Under the pieces are notes generated by a model. The model saw nothing but the letters and a program-made list of their open reading frames with translations. It was not told the DNA's origin and ran no database searches. Of a stretch of 64,000 nt of DNA, positions 1-64,000 are shown piece after piece (the first letter of the stretch is position 1; each line of letters begins with the position of its first letter). Source of the stretch: Pontibacter mangrovi (GTDB lineage: Bacteria; Bacteroidota; Bacteroidia; Cytophagales; Hymenobacteraceae); NCBI RefSeq assembly GCF_006385705.1, contig NZ_VFRQ01000002.1, positions 62,001 through 126,000 of the forward strand, read 5' to 3'. The translations under genes and the position numbers were made by a program.

Positions 1-21
1 TTTTGTGTAAGTAAGCCGGGC

Positions 22-1620
22 TTACTCCTCTTCTTTATCCTGCACGCCATTCATGTCGCTGAAGGCGGAACGCAATTCTATTTCCTCGCCTCTACTGTCC
101 ATCACTTTAAATTCCATGATGCCGAGGGAAGTGTCCTTTATCAGGCTTACCCACTTAAAGTACTTGAAGAACCACTTCACCTGCCGTGAGAATAGCCCCT
201 TGGTGTAGTAGGCGTGCACAAACGGGTGTAAGTATACTTCCAGACTCTTGTGGTTGTGGCTCGTCAGCAGGTCGTCTACCGCTGCGTCAATTTCGTCCGT
301 TACCAGAATACTGGCAGATGTTTTACCGGTGCCGCCGCAGGTAGGGCAAACTTCGCCGGTAACAATGTTTTGCTCGGGCCTCACGCGCTGTCTCGTGATC
401 TGCATCAGGCCGAATTTCGAGATCGGAAGGATGGTAGACTTGGAACGGTCTTTCTTCATTTCCTCCTTCACCACCTCGTATACTTTCTGGCGGTTTTCCG
501 GCGACTTCATATCGATGAAGTCTACTACAATGATACCACCTATATCCCGGAGGCGCAGCTGACGGGCCACTTCTTTGGCGGCCATCATGTTCACGTGCAG
601 TGCGGTTGCCTCCTGATCGGTTTCGGTATTGGATTTATTCCCACTGTTCACGTCGATCACATGCAGCGCCTCGGTGTGCTCTATCACCAGGTATCCGCCC
701 CCTGGTATCGTCACGGTTTTTCCGAAAGCAGCCTTTAGCTGTTTCTCGATGTGGAAGTGTTCAAAGGTCTTGGTTTTGCCGGTATAGTGCTTCAGGATCT
801 TGATCCTTTCAGGCGCTATACTGTGCACGTATGCCTTGATCTCATCATAGAGCTGGGTGTTATCCACTACTATGTTGTCAAAGCTCTCGTTTAGTAAATC
901 CCTCAAGATGGAGGAAGAACGATTGAGCTCGCCAATGATCTTATCGTTTGGCTTTGCTATTCTGAGGGTTTTAAAGCCCTCTTCCCAATTTGCTAGCATG
1001 TTGCGCAGGTCTCTGTCGAGCTCTGCCACATCGCGGCCTTCTGCCACTGTCCGGATAATCACGCCGAAGTTCTCCGGCTTTATACTTGTGATCAGGCGTT
1101 TCAGTCGGGTCCGCTCCTCTTTGCTGACGATCTTTTTGGATACGCTTACCGTGTTTGAGAACGGCACGAGCACCAGGTATCGCCCGGCAAGAGAAAGCTC
1201 GCAGGATAAGCGTGGGCCTTTGGTTGAGATAGGCTCTTTAACGATCTGCACCAACAGCTGCTGCCCTTTCTTGAGCACGTCAGCTATCTTGCCGAGTTTG
1301 TCTATCTCAGGCTCAAACTTTGCCTGGTTTAGCTTGGGTGTTGCGTTCTTCTGTGTTTGCGCCGCCTTTACGTACTTGTTCAGCGTTTTGATGTTGGCGC
1401 CCAGGTCGTGGTAATGCAGGAAAGCATCCTTCTGGTAACCGATATCAATAAAGGCGGCGTTCAGTCCAGGCATTACCTTTTTTACAGTCCCCAGAAAAAT
1501 ATCACCTACAATGTAGTCCGTGTCCTTCGACTCGAAGTGATATTCAACCAGGCGTTTATCCTGTAAAAGCGCAATGCGATCCCCATCCTGAGTAGAATTG
1601 ATGATCAGCTCGTTGCTCAA
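22..1620 (-). CDS. rng: Ribonuclease E/G family protein
   Basis: Single-strand endoribonuclease of the RNase E/G family, which processes rRNA precursors and starts mRNA decay. The 532 residues begin with an S1-like RNA-binding region (about residues 37-135), followed by the catalytic region. The two metal-binding aspartates of the family are visible as D323 in VIDVNSG and D367 in VVDFID, and the zinc-link CPTCGG lies at 425-430. Length fits RNase G rather than full RNase E, because the long C-terminal degradosome scaffold is missing. It is last in a minus-strand group with the COX24-like, TPR and HU genes. A hairpin at 1659-1685 separates it from the gene upstream. The family is certain; G rather than E is inferred from length. 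Confidence 0.95.
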   Translation of the reverse strand: MSNELIINSTQDGDRIALLQDKRLVEYHFESKDTDYIVGDIFLGTVKKVMPGLNAAFIDIGYQKDAFLHYHDLGANIKTLNKYVKAAQTQKNATPKLNQAKFEPEIDKLGKIADVLKKGQQLLVQIVKEPISTKGPRLSCELSLAGRYLVLVPFSNTVSVSKKIVSKEERTRLKRLITSIKPENFGVIIRTVAEGRDVAELDRDLRNMLANWEEGFKTLRIAKPNDKIIGELNRSSSILRDLLNESFDNIVVDNTQLYDEIKAYVHSIAPERIKILKHYTGKTKTFEHFHIEKQLKAAFGKTVTIPGGGYLVIEHTEALHVIDVNSGNKSNTETDQEATALHVNMMAAKEVARQLRLRDIGGIIVVDFIDMKSPENRQKVYEVVKEEMKKDRSKSTILPISKFGLMQITRQRVRPEQNIVTGEVCPTCGGTGKTSASILVTDEIDAAVDDLLTSHNHKSLEVYLHPFVHAYYTKGLFSRQVKWFFKYFKWVSLIKDTSLGIMEFKVMDSRGEEIELRSAFSDMNGVQDKEEE

Positions 1621-1658
1621 TTTCTCTCAAATGGTTATGTTGGATGTATAAGACCAAA

Positions 1659-1685
1659 GCCCACTTTAGCTTATGCAAAGTGGGC
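1659..1685 (-). terminator. Hairpin between COX24-like gene and rng
   Basis: Nine-base perfect stem (gcccacttt/aaagtgggc) with a nine-base loop, followed on the minus strand by TTTGGTC. It may end or attenuate transcription from the small gene before rng. The T-run is short, so this is only a probable terminator. Confidence 0.45.
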
Positions 1686-1704
1686 CCTCGTGAACGCAGA
1701 AGAA

Positions 1705-1794
1705 TTACTTCTTCTTATGTCTGTTTTTTCTAAGGCGCTTCTTTCTTTTGTGTGTAGCGATCTTATGTCTTTTTCTTTTCTTTCCGCAAGGCAT
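1705..1794 (-). CDS. Tiny basic AURKAIP1/COX24-domain protein (bS22/mS38-like)
   Basis: A 29-residue protein starting MPCGKKRKRHK and ending RHKKK, with more than half Lys/Arg/His. Bacteroidota genomes carry an almost invariant protein of this kind, annotated as AURKAIP1/COX24 domain. By homology to mitochondrial mS38 and actinobacterial bS22 it is expected to be a small-subunit ribosomal protein lying in rRNA. ATG at 1794 and TAA at 1705 give a complete reading frame. It lies between the TPR gene and rng on the same strand. The family is recognised from its sequence; ribosomal location is inferred from homologues. It is short enough to be missed by automatic gene callers. Confidence 0.85.
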   Translation of the reverse strand: MPCGKKRKRHKIATHKRKKRLRKNRHKKK

Positions 1795-1836
1795 AATCTT
1801 GTAGTTTTTGTTTTATGGATGATTTCGTTAAATGCT

Positions 1837-2706
1837 TTACTGTAGTTTTGCCAGGTATTCGTCTACCGAGGCATTCAGGGCTGGGTCAGCGCTCATGCCT
1901 TTCACCTTGTTAAACAGCTCCTTGGCTCTTTCGTTCTGCCCCGTCTCTGCCAACGCCACAGCCAGGTAGAAGGTTCCTTCCACGTGCTGCGGGTTTACCG
2001 AAACAAGCTTCTCAAAGCGCTCCACAGCGTTTTCATACTGGTTAGACTGAATGGACAGGATACCAAGGTTAAACAGCGCCTTCTCGTTGTTGGGGTCCGA
2101 CGCCAGCACCTCACGCAGCATCATGATACCCTGCATCGGATTGGAGGTCGCGATATAGGTCATGGCTACGTTAGTTTTGGCATCGTGGTCAGAAGGGTTG
2201 TTCTTCAGCACCTGCTCATACATGCTCCTGGCTTTGCCACCCAGCTCACTGGCGCGTTCCTGCGTGGCAGCAAAAGTAAAGGCCTCATAGTAGGCGTCTC
2301 CGGCTTTTTTATAGCTCTTCTCACCTCCACGGGCCTTAGCGGCAATTTCGTAGTAATATCCAGCGCTGTCATACTTGGCAGCGTTGGCATAGGCCTCGGC
2401 AAGCTCCACGGCCACGCGGCTGCGGCTTTGCTCACCGGTTGCTTTGTTATACTTGGCGCGGGCTGTTGTCAGCGCCATCAGCTGCTCTGGCGTGGCAGTC
2501 CGGTGCGCCTCCACCCCTGCCTCTTCCGCTGATGCCCCATGGTCGTGGCCATCGTCTTCCGAGTGCCCTTCGGGCACGGCGGCAGTGGTTTGGTTTTCGG
2601 CGAGGTTGTCTTTGTCCTCGTTGTTAACAACAACCTTAGGCAAAAAGAACAGAACGGCCACCAATACAATGGCTGCAACAACTATCAATATTTGAGACCG
2701 TTTCAT
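1837..2706 (-). CDS. Membrane-anchored TPR protein
   Basis: A 289-residue protein with one N-terminal hydrophobic segment (residues 6-24) acting as an uncleaved anchor or signal, then a His/Asp/Glu-rich linker (EGHSEDDGHDHG around residue 50) and a C-terminal half of tetratricopeptide repeats, for example NPSDHDAKTNVAMTYIATS and DPNNEKALFNLGILSIQSN. The repeats probably face the periplasm and mediate protein contacts; no enzymatic domain is visible. The gene lies directly downstream of the HU-like gene and has its own TAnnTTTG box at 2752-2759. Orthologues next to HU and rng are common in Bacteroidota. Precise function is unknown. Confidence 0.85.
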   Translation of the reverse strand: MKRSQILIVVAAIVLVAVLFFLPKVVVNNEDKDNLAENQTTAAVPEGHSEDDGHDHGASAEEAGVEAHRTATPEQLMALTTARAKYNKATGEQSRSRVAVELAEAYANAAKYDSAGYYYEIAAKARGGEKSYKKAGDAYYEAFTFAATQERASELGGKARSMYEQVLKNNPSDHDAKTNVAMTYIATSNPMQGIMMLREVLASDPNNEKALFNLGILSIQSNQYENAVERFEKLVSVNPQHVEGTFYLAVALAETGQNERAKELFNKVKGMSADPALNASVDEYLAKLQ

Positions 2707-2751
2707 TCTTCCTGCCTAATTATGCTGCTATAGATTTCTTTTTCAGATCAG

Positions 2752-2759
2752 CAAAGATA
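2752..2759 (-). promoter_or_regulatory. Putative -7 box for the TPR gene
   Basis: TATCTTTG on the minus strand matches the Bacteroidota -7 consensus TAnnTTTG, about 46 bases before the TPR start. No clear -33 TTTG was found. Confidence 0.45.
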
Positions 2760-2766
2760 CAAAAAA

Positions 2767-3072
2767 TTAAGAATGCGTAAGCTCCTGAATCTTTTTGCTG
2801 TTTTTGATCTTCTGAATGAACGTCTTGGATGGCTTGAAGCTTGGGATAAAGTGCTCGTCGATAATGATAGATGTGTTTTTAGAAATGTTACGTGCTACTT
2901 TCTTAGCGCGCTTCTTATTCACAAAGCTACCAAAACCTCTCACGTAGATGTTGTTGCCATCAGCCATGGAGTCTTTCACTACTTTGAAGAAAGCCTCGAT
3001 TGTAGACTGTACATCTGCTTTATCAATCCCTGTCTTATCAGCAATCTCTGATATTACTTCTGCTTTAGTCAC
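2767..3072 (-). CDS. HU/IHF-family DNA-binding protein
   Basis: A 101-residue nucleoid protein that bends and compacts DNA. It begins MTKAEVISEIADKTG and carries the family's helical dimer region (residues 1-45) and the DNA-binding beta-arm (about 50-80), with the signature G-F-G-S-F (VRGFGSFVNKKRAKK). The length is normal for HU, with a short extra lysine-containing tail. Start is the only ATG giving the conserved N-terminus. A good -7 box lies at 3161-3168, giving an untranslated leader of about 85 bases. It heads the minus-strand group that ends with rng. Whether it behaves as HU or IHF cannot be decided from sequence. Confidence 0.95.
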   Translation of the reverse strand: MTKAEVISEIADKTGIDKADVQSTIEAFFKVVKDSMADGNNIYVRGFGSFVNKKRAKKVARNISKNTSIIIDEHFIPSFKPSKTFIQKIKNSKKIQELTHS

Positions 3073-3395
3073 TTTCTTAGATTTTTAGGATATTAATAAT
3101 ATGTTAACTTTCTAATCTTTGGAAATCAGCCTGTTCCATCCGGCGGCGAATTTCGGGGCACAAAGGTAGTTTTACTTTTCGAATAGTAAAAGCTTTAGTG
3201 CTAAATTATTAGGCTTAAAAAGTGCTACGCTTTCCGGCCCTTTCTTCCGCTATGGGCAACAGCCATGCCACGCTCACCACCCTCTAACGGATGCCGGCTG
3301 TTTATATTTCGATGTTTACCCATTACTTTATACTTGCTACGGGCACAAACAAAGCCGTAACTTGCCTGTTCTGCAACCCCTAAACAACACAATTA
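3073..3395. other. Divergent spacer between HU-like gene and mutY
   Basis: This 323-base spacer holds the HU promoter (3161-3168). The rest has no ORF with coding character and no recognised RNA. No mutY promoter could be assigned with confidence. Confidence 0.5.
3161..3168 (-). promoter_or_regulatory. Putative -7 box for the HU-like gene
   Basis: TACCTTTG on the minus strand matches TAnnTTTG exactly. The region upstream is AT-rich but has no perfect TTTG at the -33 position. Confidence 0.55.
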
Positions 3396-4601: not shown

Positions 4602-5072
4602 ATGGCAAGTGTAAACAAAGTGATCCTGATCGGAAACCTGGGCAAAGACCCTGAAATTCGTCACCTGGAAGGCGGTGTAGCCGTTGCCCGCTTCCCAATC
4701 GCTACTTCTGAGACCTTTAAGGACAAAAGCGGACAGAAGCAGGAACGCACCGAATGGCACAATATCGTTGTGTGGAGAGGCTTGGCCGAAGTAGCCGAGA
4801 AATACCTGCGCAAAGGCAACTCTGTGTTCATCGAGGGCAAGATCCGCAGCAACAACTACACCGATAAAGACGGCATCCAACGCTACAGCACCGAGATCGT
4901 GGCCGATAACATGACCATGCTGGGCGGCCGCAGCGACAACGGCGGCGGCGGCGACTACCAAGGCTCTGCTGCTGCAAGCGGCGGAAACTTTGGCGGCGGC
5001 GCGACGGCCAACAAAGGCGGCAGCCCTGCTGGCGGTTTCCAGAACGACGAGCCAGACGACCTGCCGTTCTAA
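4602..5072 (+). CDS. ssb: Single-stranded DNA-binding protein
   Basis: Binds single-stranded DNA during replication, recombination and repair and recruits partners through its acidic tip. The OB-fold spans about residues 1-110 ([20 protein letters not shown]). It is followed by a glycine-rich linker (residues 112-145) and the canonical tail DDLPF at the C-terminus. The 156 residues are typical. The start follows a 114-base gap after mutY, so it may have its own promoter, though none is obvious. It uses almost entirely preferred codons and contains no copy of the heptamer found widely elsewhere, consistent with high expression. Confidence 0.98.
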
Positions 5073-5098
5073 CCTATGTTTCACTAAACTAAACAGTT

Positions 5099-7678: not shown

Positions 7679-7713
7679 AAAGCCCCGCCAGCACTAACAC
7701 CTGTCGGGGCTTT
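7679..7713 (+). terminator. Hairpin with T-rich tail upstream of recG
   Basis: Nine-base stem aaagccccg/cggggcttt with a 17-base loop followed by TTGTGTATTTTTG. It could end transcripts arriving from the repeat-rich spacer. The recG -7 box follows immediately. Confidence 0.5.
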
Positions 7714-7717
7714 TGTG

Positions 7718-7725
7718 TATTTTTG
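7718..7725 (+). promoter_or_regulatory. Putative -7 box for recG
   Basis: TATTTTTG matches TAnnTTTG, 48 bases before the proposed GTG start. No perfect -33 TTTG was seen. Confidence 0.4.
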
Positions 7726-7772
7726 TACTTTATACTACTTGCCATACTTTCACCCGAAGCAAGCCAGAGACC

Positions 7773-9872
7773 GTGAGTAACTTCTTCAACACCAAAATAG
7801 AATTCCTGAAGGGCGTGGGGCCGATGCGGGCGGAGCTGTTGCAGAAAGAACTCAGCATCTTCACCTACGGCGACCTTATTCAGCACTACCCTTTCCGCTA
7901 TCTCGACCGCACGCAGTTTTACAAAGTGGCCGAGTTGGACGAGAGCATGCCCTACGTGCAGGTGCGCGGCCGCATCCGGGGCAAAGAAGTGATTGGCGAG
8001 GGCCGGAAACAGCGTCTGGCGGCTACGCTGGCGGACGAAAACGGCGATCAGTTGGAACTGGTTTGGTTTAAAGGCGTGAAATGGATGCAAAAAACGCTGA
8101 AGAACCATACTGACTACATCGTATTCGGCAAACCTACGGAGTTCAACGGCAGGTTCAGCATGGCCCACCCGGAGCTGGAGGAACTTGCCGAGGAGAAGCA
8201 GACTACTTCCTTTCTGCAGCCAGTCTACAACACCACCGAAAAGCTCAAGGCCCACCGCATCGACAGCAAAGTGATCAGCAAGATGATGGAGCACTTGCTG
8301 AAGGTGGCGCTGCCGCAGGTGCAGGAGTCGCTGTCGCCGGAGCTGATTGAGACCTATAAGCTGATGGACAAGCGCAGCGCCTATGCCAACATCCATTTTC
8401 CGGAAACGGCAGACAAGTATAACAAGGCGAAGTTCCGGCTCAAGTTCGAGGAGCTTTTTTACATACAGTTGCGCCTGTTCCGCCAGAAGGTGGTGCGCAA
8501 GGCTGACCTGAAGGGACAGATCTTTAGCCATGTGCCTACCCTCAACGAGTTCTACAAAAACCACATGACCTTCGACCTGACAGGCGCGCAGAAGCGGGTG
8601 GTGAAGGAAATTTATGGCGATCTGACGGCAGGAAAACAGATGAACCGCCTCCTGCAGGGCGATGTGGGCTCGGGCAAAACCATCGTGGCTTTTATCACCA
8701 TGCTGATCGCGGCAGATAACGGGGCGCAGTCGGTGCTGATGGCGCCAACCGAGATTCTGGCCGACCAGCATTACGTGGGCCTGAAAGCTTTTGCCGACCG
8801 CTTAGGTATAAATTTGGGCAAACTCACTGGCTCCACCAAAGCCAAAGACCGTAAGGTGCTGCACGAGCAACTACGCTCCGGCGAGATGAAGATGATTGTC
8901 GGCACGCACGCCTTGCTGGAGGACGTGGTGCAGTTCCAGAACCTGGGCTTGTGCATTGTGGATGAGCAGCACCGCTTTGGGGTGGAGCAGCGCTCGAAGC
9001 TGTGGCGCAAGAACCCGCGCATCATCCCGCACGTGCTCGTAATGACGGCCACGCCTATCCCCCGCACCCTGGCCATGACCCTATACGGCGACCTGGATGT
9101 GTCGGTGATTGACGAGCTACCGGCCGGCCGTAAGGAGATCGTGACCGTGCACCGCTTCGACTCGCATCGCCTGCGCGTGTTCCAGTTTGTGCGCGACCAA
9201 ATCAAGCTGGGCCGGCAAGTATACATCGTGTACCCGCTAATTGAGGAGTCGGAGCAGATGGAGAACTACAAGGACCTTATGGACGGCTTTGAGAGTGTGC
9301 AGCGGGCCTTTCCGGAGTATAAGGTAAGTATGGTGCACGGCAAAATGAAGCCGCAGGACAAGGACTACGAAATGCAGCGCTTCGTAAACCACGAGACGCA
9401 GATCATGGTGGCCACGACGGTGATTGAGGTAGGCGTAAACGTGCCGAATGCTTCGGTGATGATTATCGAGAGTGCTGAGCGCTTCGGCTTGTCGCAGTTG
9501 CACCAGCTGCGTGGGCGCGTGGGCCGTGGTGCTGAGCAGAGTTACTGCATCCTGATGACGGGCTACAAACTGAGCAAAGACAGTAAAACCAGATTGGAGA
9601 CGATGGTGCGCACGAACAACGGATTCGAAATCGCCGACATCGATCTGAAACTGCGCGGCCCCGGTGACCTGATGGGCACACAGCAAAGCGGCGTGCTGGA
9701 CCTGCTCATCGCCGACCTGTCCAAAGACGCGCCCATACTTCAGGAGGCCCGAGCCGCCGCCCAACGCGTGCTGCACCAGGACCCGCAGCTGGAGCAGCCG
9801 GAGCACACCAACATCCGCCGTCATATCCAATCGCTGAGCGCCAACACGGTAAACTGGAGCAGGATCAGTTAA
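7773..9872 (+). CDS. recG: ATP-dependent DNA helicase RecG
   Basis: Helicase that reverses stalled replication forks and moves branched DNA junctions. The N-terminal wedge/OB domain is followed by superfamily 2 motifs: Walker A GDVGSGKT, motif Ia MAPTEILADQH, Walker B DEQHRFGV, motif III TATPIPRTLA and the late QLRGRVGRG with the TRG-type C-terminal region. An in-frame ATG lies at 7713, but the 20 extra residues are unlike RecG and overlap the terminator-like hairpin and promoter. GTG at 7773 gives SNFFNTKIEFLKGVGP, the normal RecG start, and 699 residues, the usual length. Family assignment is secure; the start is a choice. Confidence 0.96.
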   Translation: MSNFFNTKIEFLKGVGPMRAELLQKELSIFTYGDLIQHYPFRYLDRTQFYKVAELDESMPYVQVRGRIRGKEVIGEGRKQRLAATLADENGDQLELVWFKGVKWMQKTLKNHTDYIVFGKPTEFNGRFSMAHPELEELAEEKQTTSFLQPVYNTTEKLKAHRIDSKVISKMMEHLLKVALPQVQESLSPELIETYKLMDKRSAYANIHFPETADKYNKAKFRLKFEELFYIQLRLFRQKVVRKADLKGQIFSHVPTLNEFYKNHMTFDLTGAQKRVVKEIYGDLTAGKQMNRLLQGDVGSGKTIVAFITMLIAADNGAQSVLMAPTEILADQHYVGLKAFADRLGINLGKLTGSTKAKDRKVLHEQLRSGEMKMIVGTHALLEDVVQFQNLGLCIVDEQHRFGVEQRSKLWRKNPRIIPHVLVMTATPIPRTLAMTLYGDLDVSVIDELPAGRKEIVTVHRFDSHRLRVFQFVRDQIKLGRQVYIVYPLIEESEQMENYKDLMDGFESVQRAFPEYKVSMVHGKMKPQDKDYEMQRFVNHETQIMVATTVIEVGVNVPNASVMIIESAERFGLSQLHQLRGRVGRGAEQSYCILMTGYKLSKDSKTRLETMVRTNNGFEIADIDLKLRGPGDLMGTQQSGVLDLLIADLSKDAPILQEARAAAQRVLHQDPQLEQPEHTNIRRHIQSLSANTVNWSRIS

Positions 9873-11099: not shown

Positions 11100-12551
11100 G
11101 TGAAAAAGCTTTCCATACTTTTTATACTTCTGTGCCTGCTTTGCCAGCCGCAGGCTATACTTGCCCAGTCCAAAACAAGGGCAGCTGTGGACTTTAACTA
11201 CCAGCCCAACCCGGAGGCAGACCACTACAACCAGCGTTTGCCGCACAAGTCCATACCGGTGGGGCAGAACGAGTTTATACTTCTACAGCGCCAGGCCAAT
11301 GGCAAGTATGCTGTAGAGAAGTATAACGCAGACCTGCAGAAGCAATGGGCGGCGGAGATACTGATGGCTGCAGGCGAGGAAGTGGACAACTTTACAGCCA
11401 GCCAGGAGGCGGCGCTGGTGGTAACGCACCGCAAAGAGGGCCAGAACCAGCTGCTGCAGGGGCACCGCATCAACCTGAAAAACGGACAGCTGGAGAAGCC
11501 GGTGCAGCTGCTGCAGGCTCCGGCCAAAGGTCGCAGGGCAGGTGTGGCTGTGTCTGCCGACGGATCGCAGGTGCTGGCCTACCGCTTCCATACCGATAAC
11601 AGCTTTAACATCCTCCAGATCAGCGGCACGCTGTACAACGATGCTCTGCAGAAACAGCAGGAAGTGAAGTATAACCTGAGCGATTTGCGCGGCATCCTGA
11701 CGGCTGATATTAAGATTGGCAACGGCGGCGAGCAGTACGTGAACCTGATCTCGGACCAGATGAACCGCCTGAGCGTGCGCCAGTACAAGCCGGGCAGCAA
11801 AGAAGTAAAGGTGATGTCGGTGCTGGTGGGCGGCGTGTTTGGCGGCAAGAAAGTATACATCCGCGACACACGTTTCGAGCTGATGCCGGACGGGCAAATG
11901 TATGGCGCCGTGCTGACGGCCGACGAGAAGAGCGGCGGCTACTACAGCCTGAAAGCCGTGAAGTATGATTTTGAGCAGGAGGACATGCGCTTCGCAGAAG
12001 AGTATAAATTTACGCCGGACTATGTGCAGCAGGTAAACGCGCTGGATAAGGCCAACAAAAGCAATAAGCTGCAGGACATCTACCTGACCGACCTGATCCT
12101 GACGCCGGAGAAGCAGCTGCTTATACTTGCCGAGAAAAAGTATACCGAGGGCGGCGAGGGTGCGCCATACTTTGCCAAAGAGCTACACCTGTTCGCCTAC
12201 GACGAGTATATGATCTTCGACTGGAATTCGGTGCTGATGAAACAGCAGCAGGCGCCGGCCTCCGAGGGTTTTAGCGGCATTTCCTACAGCTCCTACCTCA
12301 GCGGCAATACCCTGAACCTGCTCACGCTGGAAGAGCTCAACGGAAAGTATGATTTATACCTGCGCCAGATAAACACTAACAGCGGCAGCGCCTCCGCCCC
12401 ACAGGGCCTGCGCCTCAACATCCCGAAAGACGGAAAGCCTGCTTACGTGAAGGATTATACCACCTGGCTGGCTGATAAAGACATAGTAACCGTACTGCGC
12501 AGCGGCAAGAAAGCCGACAAATTGCAGCTGAGCCGCATCGAGGTAAGATAG
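11100..12551 (+). CDS. Secreted protein of unknown function
   Basis: A 483-residue protein that I do not recognise. GTG at 11100 gives a clean signal peptide (VKKLSILFILLCLLCQPQAILAQ), cut after residue 22 or so; the in-frame ATG at 11007 would put 31 unlikely residues before it. The mature part is rich in beta-like segments with alternating hydrophobics and repeated phrases such as LTADEKSGGYYSLKAVKYDF and LILTPEKQLLILAEKKY, which could form a propeller, but no motif proves this. No catalytic residues or transmembrane segment are seen. It converges on the glycosyltransferase gene with no base between the two stop codons. Confidence 0.7.
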   Translation: MKKLSILFILLCLLCQPQAILAQSKTRAAVDFNYQPNPEADHYNQRLPHKSIPVGQNEFILLQRQANGKYAVEKYNADLQKQWAAEILMAAGEEVDNFTASQEAALVVTHRKEGQNQLLQGHRINLKNGQLEKPVQLLQAPAKGRRAGVAVSADGSQVLAYRFHTDNSFNILQISGTLYNDALQKQQEVKYNLSDLRGILTADIKIGNGGEQYVNLISDQMNRLSVRQYKPGSKEVKVMSVLVGGVFGGKKVYIRDTRFELMPDGQMYGAVLTADEKSGGYYSLKAVKYDFEQEDMRFAEEYKFTPDYVQQVNALDKANKSNKLQDIYLTDLILTPEKQLLILAEKKYTEGGEGAPYFAKELHLFAYDEYMIFDWNSVLMKQQQAPASEGFSGISYSSYLSGNTLNLLTLEELNGKYDLYLRQINTNSGSASAPQGLRLNIPKDGKPAYVKDYTTWLADKDIVTVLRSGKKADKLQLSRIEVR

Positions 12552-23513: not shown

Positions 23514-23756
23514 AGTGAATGTCTTATACTACAGTGTTTTGATCAGTTAGCTTGTAAACAGGTCAAAGTTTCTGAAAACAGCCTGTTATTGATGCATTTT
23601 AATTATTTTTTTTGAATTCTGCCACGGCCGCTCTTATAAATATTTCCCATGTGTTATATTTATACTTTTAGAATAACGGCCATACTTATGGCGCAGGCAT
23701 GGCCTGTATGCTATACGTCTACGCCGTTTTTAAGAGACAAGCCCAACAACGCCCCT

Positions 23757-28807: not shown

Positions 28808-29076
28808 AGCATGGCAGAAATTTAGATTTGATGTTGAGCGCCTGATCGCCAGCCTGTTGCTGGGGCGGCCTATACTTTTCATACCGAGGTTACGGCTTTT
28901 CGGTTTCTTAACCCGAAGCCAAAACAATTATTACGGGCTATGGCAGCCACTTTTTGTCTACTATTTTTGTTAAACTATGGCTCCTGAGGCGTAAAATTCT
29001 ACCCGGCGCGCTCAACTTTGCGGTTGCGCCGGCAGTACATCTTTGCCAGCGGGAGCCGCAGCTATACTTTATACTT

Positions 29077-34396: not shown

Positions 34397-34900
34397 CTAA
34401 TCCCAGTCCCAGTCCCAATCGTCTTCTTCCCCATCTTCCTCATCAAGGCCATAAGATAAAGGAGCCTTTACGTAAATGCCGAGCGCTTTCTGCGTTCCTT
34501 CCCCGCTGTACCTTACCCTGTAGTTGAGGCCGGCAAAGTAATTTACCCAGTAATCGGTCTGCAGCCCCAGCACGGCACTCTCTTCTTTCCTCAGCTCTAA
34601 GTATGGACCTGCGGATAACCCCGCTATGCCGATGCCTGTTTGAGCCTGCATATATAAAACAGTGCTGCCCTTCCTGCGGTCGAAGCCCAGGTTGCCGCTC
34701 ACCGGAAACCGATCCTCGAACCACCACAGCGAAGCCTCCACGCCCCAGCTTACCTTCGGCTTTTTGTCCCCGAAATTAAAGTGTAGGGCCGGACCAACCG
34801 AGAAAATATCCTGCGCCTGCGCTGAAGAGAATACCAGCAGCATTAGCAGCAAAAGCAGTTTATACTTTACAACTGCTTTTATACTTTGAGATGGCATCAT
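34397..34900 (-). CDS. Probable small outer-membrane beta-barrel protein
   Basis: A 167-residue secreted protein. ATG 34900 or 34897 gives a signal peptide (KYKLLLLLMLLVFSSAQAQ) and lies 14 bases after the LOG gene stop; a longer frame would overlap that gene. The mature sequence consists of alternating hydrophobic/polar strands with glycine and aromatic residues (SVGPALHFNFG, VSWGVEASLWWF, GLNYRVRYSG), typical of small outer-membrane barrels. It ends in an odd acidic/tryptophan run, EEDDWDWDWD. No family is recognised. It is probably cotranscribed with the LOG gene. Confidence 0.65.
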   Translation of the reverse strand: MMPSQSIKAVVKYKLLLLLMLLVFSSAQAQDIFSVGPALHFNFGDKKPKVSWGVEASLWWFEDRFPVSGNLGFDRRKGSTVLYMQAQTGIGIAGLSAGPYLELRKEESAVLGLQTDYWVNYFAGLNYRVRYSGEGTQKALGIYVKAPLSYGLDEEDGEEDDWDWDWD

Positions 34901-34914: not shown

Positions 34915-35496
34915 CTAAATCCGCTCCGAATCCACCCAATCCTCCGACACGGCAGCGGCATACTTGGTCAGCTTCTGCAACAGCACCTCCGCGTCGCTCT
35001 CCACGATCAGGCTATTCTTGTACTCCGGCTTAATCAGCCCCTCCTGCACACAGTCCGAGAGAAAGGACATGAACTTATCATAGTAGCCGTTCACGTTGTA
35101 GAAGGCCACCGGCTTTTTAATGATGCCCAGTTGGTTCCAGGTGATGATCTCGTTTACCTCATCCAAGGTGCCGAAGCCGCCGGGCATGGCGATAAACGCA
35201 TCCGACTTAGCTGCCATCAGGGCTTTCCGCTCGTGCATGGTCTTTACCACGTGCTGCTCTGTCAGGCCGGTGTGCGCCACCTCGCGGTCTATCAGGCTCT
35301 GCGGAATCACGCCCACAGCTTCCCCGCCTTTGGCAAGTATGGCATCGGCAATCGTGCCCATCAGCCCTACCTTACCACCGCCAAACACCAGTCTCATACT
35401 TTGTGCGGCCATCAGCTGGCCCAGCTTGGTGGCTGCCTCGGCATACATAGGATTGTTGCCGGCATTGGCGCCACAGAAAACGGCTATACTTTTCAT
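34915..35496 (-). CDS. LOG-family nucleoside monophosphate phosphoribohydrolase
   Basis: A 193-residue Rossmann-like protein of the LOG (lysine decarboxylase-like, TIGR00730) family, which removes the base from nucleoside 5'-monophosphates, including cytokinin ribosides. The signature PGGFGTLDEVNEIITWNQLG (about 81-100) contains the catalytic glutamate and the conserved arginine region lies earlier. The start MKSIAVFCGANAGNNP is the normal family start. Physiological role in bacteria is not settled. Confidence 0.93.
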   Translation of the reverse strand: MKSIAVFCGANAGNNPMYAEAATKLGQLMAAQSMRLVFGGGKVGLMGTIADAILAKGGEAVGVIPQSLIDREVAHTGLTEQHVVKTMHERKALMAAKSDAFIAMPGGFGTLDEVNEIITWNQLGIIKKPVAFYNVNGYYDKFMSFLSDCVQEGLIKPEYKNSLIVESDAEVLLQKLTKYAAAVSEDWVDSERI

Positions 35497-35521
35497 ACTT
35501 TATACATTGTAGTTTTTAACG

Positions 35522-40067: not shown

Positions 40068-40934
40068 ATGGAAAAAAAGACTGCAGTAGTGAGCAAGAAT
40101 GCTAATGTAGAGAATAAGCCGAACGCGGTAGGCTCTCTATTTGCGAGCATCGTAATTCCGGTTGCCATTATAGCATGTGTGCTTATCTATATGTTCGTTC
40201 TTGGCAACCCTGCCAACTTCGAAGGCAATGATCCGAACAACCACCCACTTCCGGGCAACTACCTTGGTATCGTATACAAAGGTGGCTGGGTAGTACCAGT
40301 GCTGATGTCTCTGAACCTGATGGTATTCATCTTCTCTATCGAGCGTGCTCTGACAATCGGTAAAGCAAAAGGTACTAAGAGCGTGGCAGAATTCGTACGC
40401 GTTATCTCTGCTAAACTGAACCAGCGCGACATCAACGGCGCTATCGCATCTTGCGACACGCAGAAAGGCTCTGTAGCAAACGTAGTAAAAGCCGGCCTGC
40501 TGAAGTACAAAGAAATGCAGAACGAGCCAGAGCTGCTGAAAGCAGAGAAAGTTGCCGCTATCCAGAAAGAGATCGAAGAGTCTACTTCACTGGAGCTGCC
40601 AATGCTGGAGAAAAACCTGGTGGTTATCTCAACTATCGCCTCTATCTCTACACTGGTAGGTCTGATCGGTACGGTACTTGGTATGATCAAGGCCTTCTCG
40701 GCTCTTGCAACTTCAGGTGCTCCTGACTCTGTAGCCCTTGCAAACGGTATCTCTGAGGCCCTTATCAACACAGCCCTTGGTATCACAGGCTCTACTATCG
40801 CGATCATCGCTTACAACTACTTTACAAGCAAGATCGACGTGCTTACTTACAGCATCGACGAAGCTGGCTTCAGCATGGTATCTACGTTCGCTGCTCAGCA
40901 CGACACGCCAGCTGCAAGACCACAAACTGTTTAA
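40068..40934 (+). CDS. exbB: ExbB / MotA-TolQ-family proton channel
   Basis: Inner-membrane subunit that uses the proton gradient to energise TonB. The 288 residues have one N-terminal transmembrane helix (28-48), a large cytoplasmic loop and two C-terminal helices (about 180-240) with the family motif LVGLIGTVLGMIKAF and ALINTALGITGSTIAIIAYN. It is first of exbB-exbD-exbD-tonB. It contains no copy of the AAGTATR heptamer and uses preferred codons, consistent with strong expression. Confidence 0.95.
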   Translation: MEKKTAVVSKNANVENKPNAVGSLFASIVIPVAIIACVLIYMFVLGNPANFEGNDPNNHPLPGNYLGIVYKGGWVVPVLMSLNLMVFIFSIERALTIGKAKGTKSVAEFVRVISAKLNQRDINGAIASCDTQKGSVANVVKAGLLKYKEMQNEPELLKAEKVAAIQKEIEESTSLELPMLEKNLVVISTIASISTLVGLIGTVLGMIKAFSALATSGAPDSVALANGISEALINTALGITGSTIAIIAYNYFTSKIDVLTYSIDEAGFSMVSTFAAQHDTPAARPQTV

Positions 40935-55839: not shown

Positions 55840-57228
55840 TTAAAACGGAAAGCGCGCGCTAAAGTATAAGCCACGGTCGCCCTCCCGGTTTAAAGTATAC
55901 TCCAGCCGCAGCACAATATCGTAAAAGGTTACCGCGTGCAGCCCCAGTCCACTGCCCAGCAACAGCCGGTTTGTCAGCGGGTTACCCTTCTCAAAGGCAT
56001 GGTCTGCCACATAGCCAGCGTCTGTAAAGCCGTTCAGGTACAGCGACAAAGGTATACTGTTAAACTTGGGGTTATCTATAAATTTAAGCTTTATACTTTT
56101 AATATCCAGCAGCTGGCGGGTTAAACCCTGCTTAAAGAGCGCGTAATGCTGCCCCCCCACCACGTATAGCTCGTAGCCGCGCACCAGGGAGCGGTAGCCC
56201 AGGGCGATGTTGTCGGCAAAGGCATACTTGCCCGCCAGGCGCAGCTGCCCCTCGCCGCCAGCCATGTAGGTATACTTTTGGGATAGGGGCACATACTTTA
56301 CATACTTCGCGCGCAGCGTTGTGAAAGGACTACCGGAACGGTGCAGGAAAAAAGTTTGCGCCACGCCCGCCTCCAGGTAGCTGCCAGCCGTGGGGTAAGC
56401 AAAGTTATTGCGCCGGTTAATGGCCTTGTACAGCTCCAGGCGCATGTACTGCCGCTCCTGCAGGGCCCGCTGGTAATACTCCGGGTTCAGCAAAGTTACC
56501 GAGTCTGATATATCCTCATCGTGGAAAGACAGCCGCAGCCCCGCCTGCCGCTGCACATCCTGCCGGTGCACCAGCGCCGCCGCCACAGAGGTCCGTTTAA
56601 TGGGCATGCCCTCCTCCTGCTCATAAAAGCGCTGCCTGTTGTTCACGTTGGTGTAGCTGATGGTGCGGCTGCGGTAATCGGCCACCAGAAAATCAGCGCC
56701 TAAGTTATACTTGCGCCACACATACGGAATGCGGTAGCCCAGCTCCAGCCGCTTGTTAAAGCCGCGCTGCACCCGCACGCGCACCTCCTCGTTGCGCCCC
56801 CTGAAGTTACGGCGAATCAGGTTCAGGCCATAGTCTATGCGGCTCCAGTCCTTCTTCTCCAGCCAGGCATTAAAGTTACGGTCAGCAAAGTCAAAGATGG
56901 GAATGGGATAGAGATAGTAGCGCTCCTGCACCGCAAACTGCACCCGCACCTGCCCCTTGGCACAAGTATAGGTATAGTTCACAAAGTGAAACAGGCGGAG
57001 GTTGAGCAGGCGTTTCTGGTTTTCCTGCAGCAGCGGCTCCAGCGCCTCGGCAGGTATGCTGTCGCCGGGGGCAAAGGTGAGCTCGCGCAGCATTACCTGG
57101 CTTCGGGTGCTCTCGTTGCCGGTCAGGCTGATGCTGTCGATCACGACGGCAGGCACCTCGCAGGGCTTCGCCAGCGATTCAATGCCTGTTACAAGTATAA
57201 GTATAAAAAGGAAAGCTCGCAGCGGCAT
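55840..57228 (-). CDS. POTRA-domain outer-membrane barrel protein (Omp85-like)
   Basis: A 462-residue protein with signal peptide (LRAFLFILILVTGIESLA), one POTRA-like domain (VVIDSISLTGNESTRSQVML, about 27-110) and then a beta-barrel of Omp85 type ending YTLNREGDRGLYFSARFPF with a terminal phenylalanine. It is shorter than BamA and TamA, with a single POTRA, and may belong to the patatin-fused or two-partner type without the partner. Substrate unknown. It lies between nadK and a CBS-domain gene, 11 bases from each. Confidence 0.8.
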   Translation of the reverse strand: MPLRAFLFILILVTGIESLAKPCEVPAVVIDSISLTGNESTRSQVMLRELTFAPGDSIPAEALEPLLQENQKRLLNLRLFHFVNYTYTCAKGQVRVQFAVQERYYLYPIPIFDFADRNFNAWLEKKDWSRIDYGLNLIRRNFRGRNEEVRVRVQRGFNKRLELGYRIPYVWRKYNLGADFLVADYRSRTISYTNVNNRQRFYEQEEGMPIKRTSVAAALVHRQDVQRQAGLRLSFHDEDISDSVTLLNPEYYQRALQERQYMRLELYKAINRRNNFAYPTAGSYLEAGVAQTFFLHRSGSPFTTLRAKYVKYVPLSQKYTYMAGGEGQLRLAGKYAFADNIALGYRSLVRGYELYVVGGQHYALFKQGLTRQLLDIKSIKLKFIDNPKFNSIPLSLYLNGFTDAGYVADHAFEKGNPLTNRLLLGSGLGLHAVTFYDIVLRLEYTLNREGDRGLYFSARFPF

Positions 57229-57239
57229 TGGCGCAAGCG

Positions 57240-59395: not shown

Positions 59396-59555
59396 GGGAG
59401 TTGGGGAGTTATAGAGTTTGGGAGTTTAGGAGTGATACCTTTTAGAAGAGTTTATACTTAACTGGTCGCTCTGCCGAACTTCGCTATCTGATCAAATCCA
59501 CTTTTACTTAACTAACTCCTAAACTCTCAAACTCCCCCACTCCTAAACTCCTAAA
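59396..59555. repeat. Inverted AGTTTGGGAGTTTAGG-type tracts
   Basis: The left tract 59396-59433 (built from GGAGTT and GTTTAGGAG words) and the right tract 59512-59555 (ACTCCTAAACTC words) are imperfect inverted copies flanking the spacer between pabA and the cvpA-like gene. They may pair. The right tract runs to the end of the cvpA-like gene. Confidence 0.5.
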
Positions 59556-60069: not shown

Positions 60070-60182
60070 AATCTATAAAAAGGTGGAAGTTGCTACACTT
60101 CGTACCACGCCAGCACAGCCAGGCCATACTTGTGCGTGAAGGTACAGCCGCCGCCGCTTTGGAAGAGCAGCGGCGGCAGCTG

Positions 60183-60190
60183 CAAAGATA
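60183..60190 (-). promoter_or_regulatory. Putative -7 box for the cvpA-like gene
   Basis: TATCTTTG on the minus strand matches TAnnTTTG, about 115 bases before the start and 4 bases after the yqeY stop. Confidence 0.42.
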
Positions 60191-60193
60191 ACT

Positions 60194-60655: not shown

Positions 60656-60818
60656 AGTTTTTCTGGTTTATACTTTTATTTGGTTGAGGTGCTATTGCTT
60701 ACGCATCCGCAGGCTTTTGCGGCCACCGCAAGAGACTGTCATCTTAAACAAAATTCCACTAATTTAGTCATTCTATTACGTAAGACGATGACAGGGCTGC
60801 AGCCCGCAAAACAGAGCC

Positions 60819-61532
60819 ATGACGAAACTGAGTGTAAATATAAACAAAATAGCCACGCTGCGGAACGCCCGCGGCGGCGACAGGCCAAATGTGGTGCAGG
60901 CGGCCAAAGATTGCGAGCGCTTCGGCGCGCAGGGCATTACCGTGCACCCGCGCCCCGACGAGCGCCACATCCGCTACCGCGATGTGTACGATCTGAAGGA
61001 GGTGGTAACGACAGAATTCAACATCGAAGGAAATCCCACACCCGACTTTCTGAAACTTGTAAAAGAGGTGCGCCCGGAGCAGGCCACGCTGGTGCCCGAC
61101 GCGCCCGATGCCATCACCTCCAACGCCGGCTGGGACACCATCCGCCACAAAGACTTTCTGACGGATGTGATTCTGGAGCTGAAGGAGCTGGGCATCCGCA
61201 CCTCCATTTTTGTGGACCCGGACGAAGGGATGATTGAAGGCGCTGCGCTGGTAGAAACCGACCGCGTGGAGCTGTACACCGAAGCCTATGCCAGCAATTA
61301 CCATACAGACCGCGAGAAGGCCATCGCGCCATACTTGAAAGCCGCTTTAAAAGCACAGGAGTATGGCTTGGGCCTAAACGCCGGCCACGACCTGGACCTG
61401 GATAACCTCAAGTACCTGCACGACACGCTGCCTAACCTGAAGGAGGTAAGCATCGGGCACGCCCTTATCTGCGATGCCTTGTACCTTGGCCTGGAGAATA
61501 CGATTCAGCTTTACCTGCGCCAGCTCAAGTAA
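60819..61532 (+). CDS. pdxJ: Pyridoxine 5'-phosphate synthase
   Basis: Joins 1-deoxyxylulose 5-phosphate and 3-amino-2-oxopropyl phosphate in vitamin B6 synthesis. The 237-residue barrel begins [20 protein letters not shown], with the catalytic histidine/arginine/glutamate region in [18 protein letters not shown] and the late [15 protein letters not shown]. Full length. Its stop codon TAA shares its last base with the ATG of mnmH (61532), so the two are coupled. Confidence 0.97.
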
Positions 61533-62560
61533 TGGTAAACAGCATAAGTATAAACGAGTTTCTGCAGAAGGCGGAAAAGCTGCCAGTGCTGGATGTGCGC
61601 GCCCCCAAAGAGTATGCGGAAGGCCACATGCCCACGGCGCTGTCGTTCCCGATTTTTGACGATGCGCAGCGCGCCAGGGTGGGCACCGCCTATAAGCAGC
61701 AGGGCCACGACCCGGCGGTTCTGATCGGGCTGGACCTGTTTGGGCCGCGCATGGCGGGCTTTGTGCAGGAGGCGGGCAAGCTTTCCAAAAACAAGGAGCT
61801 GCTGGTGCACTGTTGGCGCGGCGGCATGCGTAGCGGGGCCATGGCCTGGCTGCTGGATTTTGCAGGCTTTAAAGTGCATCTGCTGCAGGGAGGTTACAAG
61901 GCTTACCGGAACCGCATGCACGAGGAGTTTGAAAAGCCGCGCAAGCTCATCATACTAGGCGGCCTGACGGGCAGCGGCAAAACCGACCTGCTGCCGCACC
62001 TGCAACAGCTCCGGCAACAAACGATAGACCTGGAAGGACTTGCCAACCACAAAGGCTCCGCCTTCGGCAGCATTGGCATGGACCCGCAACCCAGCACCGA
62101 GCACTTTGAGAACCTGCTGGGCATGCAGTTGTTACACTTAGATGAAAAGCTGCCGCTGTGGCTGGAGGACGAAAGTATAAATATAGGCCGCGTGCACATG
62201 CCCAAGCCCCTCTTCGACCAGATGCAGCAGGCGCCAACAGTTGTGCTGCAGGTGCCGCACAGGCTGCGGGTGCAAAAGCTGGCCCAGGAATACTGCCACA
62301 CCAGCGAGGCCATACTTGCCACCGCTATCCTCAAAATAAAGAAGCGCCTGGGCGGCCTGGCTACCAAAGAGGCACTGTCGGCCATCTCGGATGGCGATAT
62401 GGAGAAAATGGTAGAAATTGCCCTGACCTATTACGACAAAGCTTACGCATACGAACTGGCCAGGAAGCAGCGGGTGCTCCCGCTGGAACTGCCCGGCCTG
62501 AACCCGGAAGAAAACGCTGCCCTGGTGGTGGCTTTTGCTAAACAACATAACCTGCTTTAA
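61532..62560 (+). CDS. mnmH: tRNA 2-selenouridine synthase
   Basis: Replaces sulfur with selenium at the wobble uridine of certain tRNAs, using selenophosphate and a geranylated intermediate. The 342-residue protein has a rhodanese-like domain with the catalytic cysteine in CWRGG (C94), and a P-loop domain with GLTGSGKTD (143-151). Length and order are normal for MnmH (SelU). The next gene, selD, supplies its selenium donor. Start overlaps the pdxJ stop by one base. It contains heptamer-driven AGT ATA codons at Ser-Ile pairs. Confidence 0.95.
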
Positions 62561-62562
62561 CC

Positions 62563-63615
62563 ATGGAAGAGACATCCACCGAAAGTATAAAACTTACGCA
62601 ATACAGCCACGGCGCCGGCTGCGGCTGTAAAATATCCCCCAAAGTGCTCGATGCCATCCTGCACTCCGACATCAGCTACCCCGAGGAGAAGAACCTGCTG
62701 GTGGGCAACAGCTCCCGCGACGACGCTGCCGTGTACGACATCGGCCAGGGCCGCGCCGTTATCAGCACCACCGACTTCTTTATGCCGATTGTGGACGATG
62801 CCTACGACTTCGGCAGAATTGCCTCGGCCAACGCCATTTCGGATGTGTATGCCATGGGCGGCACCCCCATGATGGCCATTGCCGTGCTGGGCTGGCCTAT
62901 CGATAAACTCGCTCCGGAAGTAGCCAAGCGCGTGATTGAGGGCAGCCGCAGCATTTGCCACGAGGCAGGCATACCTTTAGCAGGCGGCCACAGCATCGAC
63001 AGCCCTGAGCCAATTTTTGGTTTGGCCGTAACGGGCATGGTAAACATCCAAAACCTGAAGCAGAACGACACTGCCACCGCCGGCTGCGAGCTATACTTAA
63101 CCAAGCCGCTGGGCGTGGGCATACTTTCTACGGCACAGAAAAAAGCCATCCTAAAACCGGAGCACGTACAACTGGCGCCGCAGCAGATGATGCAGCTCAA
63201 CAAGATAGGCGCCGAACTAGGCCAGCTGCCGCAGGTAAAGGCCATGACCGACGTAACCGGTTTCGGCTTGATGGGGCACCTCTCGGAAATGTGCGAAGGC
63301 AGCAACCTGAGCGCCGAAGTATACTTTGACAAAGTGCCGGTGATACCAGAGGCATTGGAGTACCTGGCGCAAAAAGCCATACCAGGCGGCACCCACCGCA
63401 ACTTCGACAGCTACGGCCACAAACTCGCCGACCTTGCGCCGGACCAGAAGCACCTGCTCTGCGACCCGCAAACCAGCGGCGGCCTGCTGGTAGCCGTTGA
63501 CCCGGCTGGCAGGGATGAGGTGCTGGCGGTTTTTGAGAAGTATAACCTGCAACTGCAGCCGCTGGGTGTGCTGAAGAAGCGGGAAAATGGAGAGAAGTTG
63601 ATAAGGGTGGTATAA
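62563..63615 (+). CDS. selD: Selenide, water dikinase
   Basis: Makes selenophosphate from selenide and ATP. The 350-residue protein has the catalytic pair C20/K23 in [12 protein letters not shown], the metal-binding [10 protein letters not shown] and [19 protein letters not shown]. The catalytic residue is cysteine rather than selenocysteine, so no SECIS element is needed. Two bases separate it from mnmH; the pair makes selenouridine. No selA or selB is in the window, so selenoprotein synthesis is not indicated here. Confidence 0.97.
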
Positions 63616-63684
63616 CAATATCTCCCTGCCTCCTGCTTCCGTACTTCCTAGAATTATGCCCTGGGGTTTGGCATTTAAGATAAA

Positions 63685-63761
63685 ACCCACTCCTGGCCCC
63701 TCCAAGGAGGGGAATTACATCATGAGGAAAATTCCCCTCCTTGGAGGGGCCAGGGGTGGGT
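63685..63761. repeat. Long inverted repeat of the CCCACCCCTGGCCCC family
   Basis: Arms 63685-63716 and 63730-63761 are inverted copies, 31 of 32 bases matching, around a 13-base loop. Each arm contains the inner palindrome CCCCTCCAAGGAGGGG, so the RNA can form either one long or two short hairpins. Related single arms lie at 13428-13461, 7251-7285 and 47171-47193. It lies between selD and the next gene and could also act as a terminator. Confidence 0.85.
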
Positions 63762-63826
63762 AAAGAATTATACCCTACTCTAAACCCTGTGGCTTAAATT
63801 ATTAAAGTTAAATAGCACCTGAACAA

Positions 63827-64000
63827 ATGAAACTACACTATAAAGAAATGGGCCATGGCCAACCGCTGCTGATATTGCATGGTTTGTTTGGCACGTTGGA
63901 TAACTGGGCAACGCTGGCCAAACGGCTGGCAGAGCATTACAATGTTTTTCTGGTGGACCTGCGCAACCACGGCCGCTCCCCGCACAGCGAAGATCATAAC
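63827..64000 (+). CDS. Alpha/beta hydrolase, truncated by the window end
   Basis: Only the first 58 residues are present: MKLHYKEMGHGQPLLILHG then LFGTLDNWATLAK and VFLVDLRNHGRSPHSE. The HGLFGTLDNW loop and DLRNHGRS are typical of YbfF-like alpha/beta esterases. The nucleophile serine lies beyond the window. It begins after the long inverted repeat and is on the same strand as selD. Confidence 0.88.
   Translation, partial: MKLHYKEMGHGQPLLILHGLFGTLDNWATLAKRLAEHYNVFLVDLRNHGRSPHSEDHN

Follow-up and report, generated by a model that had tools for sequence, protein, structure and literature searches.

The window analyzed here, a stretch of 64,000 nucleotides from Pontibacter mangrovi, raises the question of why one heptamer, YATACTT, and its complement AAGTATR recur so often in it. 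There are 171 copies spread throughout positions 1..64000, 102 on the plus strand and 69 on the minus strand. TATACTT occurs 61 times, AAGTATA 42 times, CATACTT 41 times, and AAGTATG 27 times. All four forms exceed the order-3 Markov expectation (14.4, 8.4, 10.9, and 4.7, respectively), a comparison proposed in the original prediction, whose hand counts (about 60 TATACTT, about 40 AAGTATA, and about 65 relaxed forms) are close to those computed. Under an order-1 model, TATACTT was expected 5.2 times on both window strands and was counted 103 times. The prediction had also named codon usage as the explanation that could overturn it. When synonymous codons were shuffled in the predicted window genes (55 kb, with coordinates from a simple gene predictor of our own), 22.0 ± 4.0 copies of YATACTT were obtained, with a maximum of 35 in 200 shuffles, compared to 127 in the real genes, and so codon usage does not overturn the prediction there. 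The heptamer excess is real and genome-wide, with 10,809 copies of YATACTT (5,575 + 5,234) in the 4.88-Mb genome versus 1,085 (559 + 526) of the reversed word. Nearly all the information lies in a 7-bp core, at whose first position T and C alone are enriched. Beyond the core there is only slight information, chiefly a mild preference for a flanking T, and nothing within 25 bp behaves as a spaced partner.

Copies in the window lie in spacers and in all three phases of genes on either strand, a distribution that had been predicted and that the phase count confirmed. At each of the six examples that the prediction gave by coordinate the heptamer is present; one of these is the double copy AAGTATAAGTATA (57193..57205, minus strand), in which the two copies are offset by 6 bp. 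The word is absent from ssb (4602-5072) and from the exbB/tolQ-like gene (40068-40934), again as claimed. Several other copies are close neighbors on the plus strand: three share one orientation at 11114..11162 and again at 56271..56307, two do so at 23661..23687, 34861..34886, and 35485..35500, and two stand head to tail as TATACTTTATACTT at 29063..29076. An inverted pair, AAGTATACTT, overlaps at 230..239, with TATA common to both copies.

The word is a feature of most Pontibacter genomes sampled. In a sample of the phylum, TATACTT was enriched 22-fold here and did not exceed about 1.7-fold in the 394 other genomes, which included no Pontibacter; YATACTT reached about 2.0-fold genome-wide in one genome of another genus. 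A comparison with relatives, also proposed at the outset, gave no TATA-type word in 20 genomes sampled from other genera, 17 of them with 20 kb and the rest with 8.6 kb (G041), 6.1 kb (G187), and 2.5 kb (G030, where the letters read N). Fifty Pontibacter genomes hold between them the dialects YATACTT, TATACCT, TATAGTT, and TATATA. Assigned by eye, these follow a recG tree that is based on one gene, midpoint rooted, and weak at some nodes. The recG open frame (7713..9872, plus strand; query, the residues from 7803) lies outside the motif system and also anchors the aligned 20-kb regions compared between genomes. Seven genomes (G058, G049, G091, G052, G077, G008, and G085) were surveyed for dialect from 5 kb only, and their genome-wide YATACTT counts agree with the assignments. 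The heptamer dialects are asymmetric, whereas TATATA, the word of G002, is a palindrome. Three genomes (G018, G033, and G055) carry two words, TATACTT and TATAGTT, which are one transversion apart, and 8 of the 50, in about four lineages, are wordless.

Each clade conserves its own word, although this is less clear-cut in clade C. Own-word retention in three clades was 0.67 (3,050/4,524), 0.70 (2,689/3,825), and 0.58 (957/1,646), computed over all ordered pairs of related genomes at one locus, so that each site is counted many times. The medians for AT-rich 7-mers were 0.29, 0.35, and 0.35; own words lay beyond the 90th percentile in each clade, ranking 84 of 2,800, 76 of 3,152, and 129 of 1,998, and were first in none. 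Nor were the controls uniformly low: a scrambled one was retained at 0.59 (110/185) in clade B and the reversed one at 0.57 (78/136) in clade C. The wordless set comprised nine genomes, including G131, with an identity of 76% versus 82-85% in the other sets. An alignment of nine genes contained 37 sites; 14 of them were intact in at least six of eight word-bearing genomes, and just one of these 14 was intact in the wordless P. ummariensis. Evidence that sites swap a letter in place is suggestive but weaker: exchange between TATACTT and TATACCT at shared sites was 15-16%, where controls had medians of about 2%, yet comparable words place it no higher than 64th of 881 and 45th of 843.

Could a functionless mutation or repair bias alone have produced the word? 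Spacers in the YATACTT clade are denser in copies (3.7-8.6/kb) than genes are (2.0/kb), and in TATACCT genomes the neighbor TATATCT is depleted to 0.2 (6 versus 30.5), both of which fit such a bias. In YATACTT genomes, however, the full 7-mer is enriched 24-fold, and its single-letter neighbors, at 0.6-6.7 times expectation, form a low decay halo in which none is depleted below 0.6. Existing sites are also kept beyond the norm, and plasmids of the same cells are far less enriched. Three plasmids typed as mobilizable in PLSDB, one covered whole and two in part, carry 0.47-0.57 copies per kb compared to 1.2-2.4 per kb genome-wide in the same three species, an enrichment of 1.9- to 2.6-fold versus 6.5- to 9.9-fold. 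Mutation or repair bias alone is thus a very unlikely source of the word.

The arrangement of copies is uneven. Gaps between them are clustered, and the even spacing seen for uptake words is absent. In P. kalidii and the window together, pairs in the same versus opposite orientation numbered 136:18 at 4-20 bp, 216:97 at 20-70 bp, and 282:110 at 70-150 bp, while composition-matched permutations gave ratios near 1:1 beyond 20 bp. Copies in the YATACTT clade are co-oriented up to about 150 bp, which to our knowledge is not a property of DNA uptake sequences (DUS). Such pairs suggest oriented, cooperative binding, as by an architectural or self-marking protein (a nucleoid protein, or a defense nuclease sparing marked DNA) whose sites would be kept by selection, and the word-poor plasmids agree with this. 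Against it, co-orientation within 150 bp at orthologous loci is less marked for the TATACCT clade, at 144:86, and is not seen for the TATAGTT clade, at 56:70. The 150 commonest other heptamers likewise show a same-orientation excess at every distance up to 1,200 bp, which we attribute to reading frames. Repeated loss of the word in about four lineages, with no visible replacement, would also be odd for such a protein, which we consider rather unlikely. Relative to genes, spacers of the YATACTT clade follow no orientation rule (160:188, 89:64, and 55:53), and co-directional spacers of the TATACCT clade hold 70 copies in the same and 35 in the opposite orientation, counted over overlapping orthologous regions. 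Inside genes of the YATACTT clade, 471 copies are sense and 628 antisense, with a strong phase preference and only a mild 5-prime excess along the gene.

Orientation relative to replication bears on another proposed role, that of a Chi-like site read by AddAB or by a different recombination nuclease. Chi is enriched on the leading strand in E. coli and others. Here the leading strand has no excess in P. kalidii (402:488 in 17 of 20 regions, a slight lagging excess, p = 0.004), in G087 (110:114 in 7 of 8 regions), or in P. actiniarum (70:78 in all 6 regions); a test of orientation relative to replication had been suggested in the original prediction. Like Chi, the Pontibacter word is short, asymmetric, poor on plasmids, and present in thousands of copies, and an AddB-like protein, identified by inference from a PDDEXK_1 domain and a frame roughly 960 to 1,020 aa long, is found in 50 of 50 genomes. 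This gene does not track the word, since its frame is uninterrupted in the wordless genomes too, and one genome with two words sits badly with a single enzyme. A Chi-like role is accordingly quite improbable.

Another possibility is that the word is a methylation target, made or kept by methylation-directed repair, as proposed for HIP1. According to PMC4390886, cyanobacterial HIP words accompany matching methyltransferases. HIP1 and its alternates resemble the Pontibacter word in being highly iterated, at about one per kb or more, and in being swapped for other words in some relatives. HIPs are palindromic and tied to a methyltransferase, unlike the Pontibacter heptamers, which are asymmetric and which none of four families tested in 50 genomes tracks (PF07669, PF01555, PF02384, and PF00145, compared at family level). 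PF01555 (31/50) and PF00145 (23/50) occur in word-bearing and wordless genomes alike, strong matches to PF02384 and PF07669 are scattered, and the word-rich P. cellulosilyticus (G077) has only 7e-5 for PF02384, 4e-10 for PF07669, and no match to the other two. In YATACTT genomes, no single neighbor word is consumed. The three heptamer dialects do have adenines 2 and 4 in common, and since PF02384 is matched in all 50 genomes and PF07669 in 47 of them, these large families could conceivably include one enzyme that the genomes share. The suggested methylation-target role itself appears improbable.

The Chi and methylase readings fit worse than uptake-sequence dialects, and the best explanation, which we put forward tentatively, is that YATACTT may be the local dialect of a Pontibacter-wide self-DNA signal working like a DNA uptake sequence. 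A putative receptor or processing protein would bind DNA and prefer heptamer-bearing molecules; uptake or recombination would then favor word-bearing alleles, and copies would accumulate wherever sequence tolerates them. A shift in receptor specificity might then pass through a two-word stage (TATACTT with TATAGTT) or an in-place letter change (TATACTT and TATACCT), and loss of the receptor would let the word decay. We infer the receptor, the drive, and the part played by natural transformation. Direct results are that the word is enriched, has dialects, is conserved clade by clade, coexists with a second word in some genomes and is missing from some lineages, that its density on three plasmids is low, and that it shows neither an orientation rule in spacers nor an excess on the leading strand. 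The original prediction is supported in part: its likeness to uptake sequences or iterated motifs is strengthened by the dialects, the clade-specific conservation, the low plasmid density, and the several losses, and its Chi alternative lacks the leading-strand excess. Counting against an uptake-like role are the lack of a receptor among the candidates, the short 7-bp core, the clustered gaps, and the co-orientation.

The closest parallel is offered by the DUS dialects of Neisseriaceae. Uptake words are chromosomal and scarce on mobile DNA, although this is no strict criterion, and the three plasmids agree with it. As described for DUS in PMC3630211, the Pontibacter copies are dispersed in thousands over both strands, far beyond chance, with dialects that follow phylogeny, a conserved core with variable positions, two-dialect genomes one letter apart, and wordless relatives; comEC is also present here. 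The same source describes two dialects for S. muelleri, which carries kingDUS and simDUS. The Pontibacter system differs in its phylum, in the local co-orientation of one clade, in having no full-length type IV pilus ATPase, and in its 7-bp core, compared to about 10 bp or more for DUS (10-mers in the same source), 9 bp in H. influenzae (PMC1626085), and about 9 to 12 bp for uptake words generally. Pasteurellaceae uptake signal sequences prefer one orientation and some reading frames within genes, as PMC2346458 describes, and are likewise iterated with an in-gene orientation bias; they differ in word, length, and phylum, and the bias to both gene ends is missing here.

A ComEC-type inner membrane channel is encoded in 50 of 50 genomes, with the comEC frame broken in G087 and G046 and shorter in G119. 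It is uninterrupted in 8 of 8 wordless genomes, and terminal branches, fitted to a recG tree held constant for 30 of the 50 genomes (5 of the 8 wordless among them), gave no clear signal of faster comEC evolution in wordless lineages; comEC thus gives no sign of lost competence there. The split comEC of G087, which may be an assembly error, was rejected as a cause of its lower word density, since in P. actiniarum, where comEC is intact, the density is similar or lower still. The DUS receptor is a minor pilin of the type IV pilus (ComP, with ComN predicted). No full-length match to the T2SSE pilus ATPase was found in 50 genomes, where partial matches covered at most about 66 of 370 positions and three were just above the cut-off. 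Judged by this ATPase, the known minor-pilin route is therefore unlikely. The comEC neighborhood was rejected as a receptor source: of 30 loci, 28 have phoH beside comEC, and all 30 have a GNAT-like gene, identified by eye. Riemerella, also of the Bacteroidota, transforms with ComEC, DprA, ComF, and RecA, together with four proteins that do not resemble known transformation machinery, as reported in PMC8459023. The Riemerella-derived candidate receptor DUF5689 (PF18942) was likewise rejected, as it occurs in 22 of the 50 genomes and is missing from strong-word ones such as G000 and G107.

More doubtfully, Pontibacter may have evolved its own system, independent of pili, for acquiring DNA or recognizing self by sequence. 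Two-word genomes would then be intermediates between dialects, and the receptor of one clade would read co-oriented copies cooperatively. We know of uptake-sequence systems from Neisseriaceae and Pasteurellaceae only, both pilus-based. In the open-access literature searched, we found no report of transformation or of an iterated word in Pontibacter, nor, in the literature searched, of an uptake-sequence-like system in Bacteroidota, which the Pontibacter system would be if true. A third origin, in a phylum with a poorly understood transformation route, would test why such words evolve, how receptor and sites change together, and what loss brings. Even under another function, the force that keeps ten thousand heptamers per genome demands explanation. 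With several dialects, two words in three of the fifty genomes, and loss of the word in about four lineages, the genus provides an unusually good comparative setting. Outside the genus, G004 has CCTAGG(T).

The heptamer YATACTT occurs 171 times in the window, counting both strands, and 5,575 + 5,234 times in the whole genome (4,877,951 bases, 35 contigs), about once per 450 bases, against 559 + 526 copies of the reversed word. This bears out the original prediction of over-representation on both strands, and the excess goes beyond composition. The four heptamers were observed 61, 42, 41, and 27 times in the window, versus 14.4, 8.4, 10.9, and 4.7 expected from a third-order Markov model. Synonymous codon usage, named beforehand as the explanation that would undo the prediction, leaves the excess unexplained: 200 shuffles of the predicted window genes gave a mean of 22.0 ± 4.0 copies (maximum 35) versus 127 observed, and in 336 kb of P. 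kalidii genes 100.8 ± 9.3 were expected and 596 observed. In the window, the flanks show a mild preference for T on either side with hardly any further information, and no spaced partner was found within 25 bp. In YATACTT genomes, TATACTT lies 24-fold above a motif-masked model and its single-letter neighbours, CATACTT aside, at 0.6- to 6.7-fold, as decay would predict. One neighbour, TATATCT, is depleted to 0.2 in TATACCT genomes (6 versus 30.5 expected), unlike every neighbour in YATACTT genomes.

The source genome belongs to Pontibacter, the name under which the matching recG loci stand in the genome collection. Across 200 genomes of the family, YATACTT outnumbers the reversed word up to about 15 times in Pontibacter and at most about 2.0 times in other genera; among 395 genomes of the phylum, TATACTT is 22-fold enriched in the source genome and never exceeds about 1.7-fold in the remaining 394, none of them from Pontibacter. 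No TATA-type word was found in 20 genomes sampled from five other genera of the family (one being N only). In a genome of another genus of the family (locus L197 of G004), CCTAGG(T) was strongly over-represented in 20 kb (CCTAGG 56 versus 8.5 expected, both strands) and is possibly another iterated word.

The word has dialects. Assigned by eye from a word survey plus genome-wide YATACTT counts, the 50 Pontibacter genomes (one filed as Botryobacter) comprise 20 with YATACTT, 12 with TATACCT, 4 with TATAGTT, 3 with both TATACTT and TATAGTT, 1 with TATATA (G002), 1 of YATACC type (G115), 1 weak mixture (G131), and 8 without a clear word, where YATACTT is still 1.3- to 2.0-fold enriched genome-wide. 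On a recG tree the dialects group as clades, and the wordless genomes make up about four lineages. Genomes with two words are interspersed on this tree with those that have TATAGTT alone, so carrying both may be the ancestral condition of that clade. In the two-word genome G055, TATACTT and TATAGTT top the list of enriched heptamers in 120 kb drawn from six places. In G002, TATATA words stand at the places of the relatives' heptamer (loci L001 and L002; 140 versus 7.2 expected in 40 kb, both strands). The wordless genomes are among the largest of the genus (5.2-6.5 versus 3.8-5.6 Mb; medians 6.0 versus 4.6 Mb, 8 versus 41 genomes, Mann-Whitney p = 1.6e-5 on rounded sizes with kinship ignored).

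TATACTT sites of the YATACTT set read TATACCT in the TATACCT clade in 465/3,027 comparisons, and the reverse held in 465/3,073; within clades this exchange is about 2%, and the same letter change in comparable words has medians of 1.8% and 2.3%. The dialect word ranks only 64/881 and 45/843 among comparable words (9/174 and 10/152 among AT-rich ones), and TATAGTT, not a dialect word there, becomes TATAGCT in 58/477, so the alignments suggest, short of proof, that the letter may have changed in place. Replacement between TATAGTT and TATACTT is rare (13/522 and 13/360). TATACTT is kept among two-word genomes (118/191) and mostly lost in TATAGTT-only genomes (61/360 retained).

Around recG, YATACTT, TATACCT, and TATAGTT are retained within their own clades in 3,050/4,524, 2,689/3,825, and 957/1,646 aligned comparisons, which are ordered pairs of related genomes, the same site being counted many times. 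In the same clades, AT-rich heptamers have retention medians of 0.29, 0.35, and 0.35 (90th percentiles 0.56, 0.61, and 0.54), among which TATACTT ranks 84/2,800, TATACCT 76/3,152, and TATAGTT 129/1,998; the words outranking them rest on far fewer comparisons. Some controls are also retained well: foreign TATAGTT (0.51 and 0.61), a scrambled word in the TATACCT clade (0.59, 110/185), and a reversed word in the TATAGTT clade (0.57, 78/136). In the nine wordless or weak genomes, where identity is lower (76%), every dialect word is retained at 0.25 or less. Nine aligned genes hold 37 sites present in at least one genome. Of these, 14 are intact in at least six of the eight genomes that bear the word, and 4 in every one of the eight; P. 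ummariensis, a species without the word, carries 2 of the 37 sites, one of which belongs to the 14.

In the YATACTT clade, genes carry 2.0 copies per kb and spacers 3.7-8.6, with the peak between convergent genes. Copies within genes number 471 sense and 628 antisense, with phase preferences, and spacers of this clade follow no clear orientation rule (160:188, 89:64, and 55:53). In co-directional spacers of the TATACCT clade, unlike the YATACTT clade, the word shares the direction of the genes in 70 cases and opposes it in 35, counts from orthologous loci that are non-independent. A leading-strand excess was absent in three genomes (402:488, 110:114, and 70:78), the first, P. kalidii, having a slight lagging-strand excess. 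In both genes and spacers of the YATACTT clade, co-oriented clustering reaches about 150 bp, with same- versus opposite-orientation pairs at 956:349 within 150 bp and 756:670 at 150-400 bp; it is weaker for TATACCT (144:86) and absent for TATAGTT (56:70). Permuted words of equal composition lack it beyond 20 bp, and the 150 commonest other heptamers show a same-orientation excess at every distance to 1,200 bp, which we take for a reading-frame effect.

Three plasmids are poor in the word: 0.47/kb in P. kalidii (60 of 73.8 kb), 0.47/kb in P. akesuensis (all 116.1 kb), and 0.57/kb in P. actiniarum (140 of 204 kb). On them it exceeds the reversed word 1.9- to 2.6-fold, compared with 6.5- to 9.9-fold genome-wide. 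One stretch of the P. actiniarum plasmid (L294; NZ_CP021236.1, 20-40 kb) carries 1.4/kb versus about 0.4-0.5/kb in other examined stretches and is perhaps of chromosomal origin.

Uptake-sequence systems match the dialects, the conservation within clades, the genomes with two words, the repeated losses, and the scarcity on plasmids better than Chi, the cyanobacterial HIP, or mutation bias do. An architectural or self-marking protein seems unlikely, a Chi role quite doubtful, and mutation bias highly improbable. Neisseriaceae DUS dialects likewise track phylogeny, and S. muelleri has two, one transversion apart and in nearly equal numbers, according to PMC3630211, in which the densest DUS genome named is K. 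oralis, whose 2.4 Mb contain 5,918 copies. The P. flavimaris genome of about 4.6 Mb contains 14,979 YATACTT. Known DUS and USS systems differ from this one in word length and in pilus machinery, and no full-length pilus ATPase match was found in the 50 genomes. We therefore tentatively favour an uptake or recombination self-signal that may work like a DUS, rather than one that is a DUS.

A methylation target seems improbable. At the level of whole families, none of four methyltransferase families, matched in 47, 31, 50, and 23 of the 50 genomes, tracks the word. The gene comEC is present in 50/50; its frame is broken in two genomes (G046 and G087) and shorter in a third (G119). In G087 (L291) it forms two frames although the genome is a single contig, and an assembly error is possible. 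No clear acceleration of comEC was seen in wordless lineages, with five of eight wordless genomes covered. DUF5689, from a protein required for Riemerella transformation according to PMC8459023, was set aside as a candidate, its distribution across Pontibacter being patchy. An AddB-like protein is encoded in 50/50 genomes.
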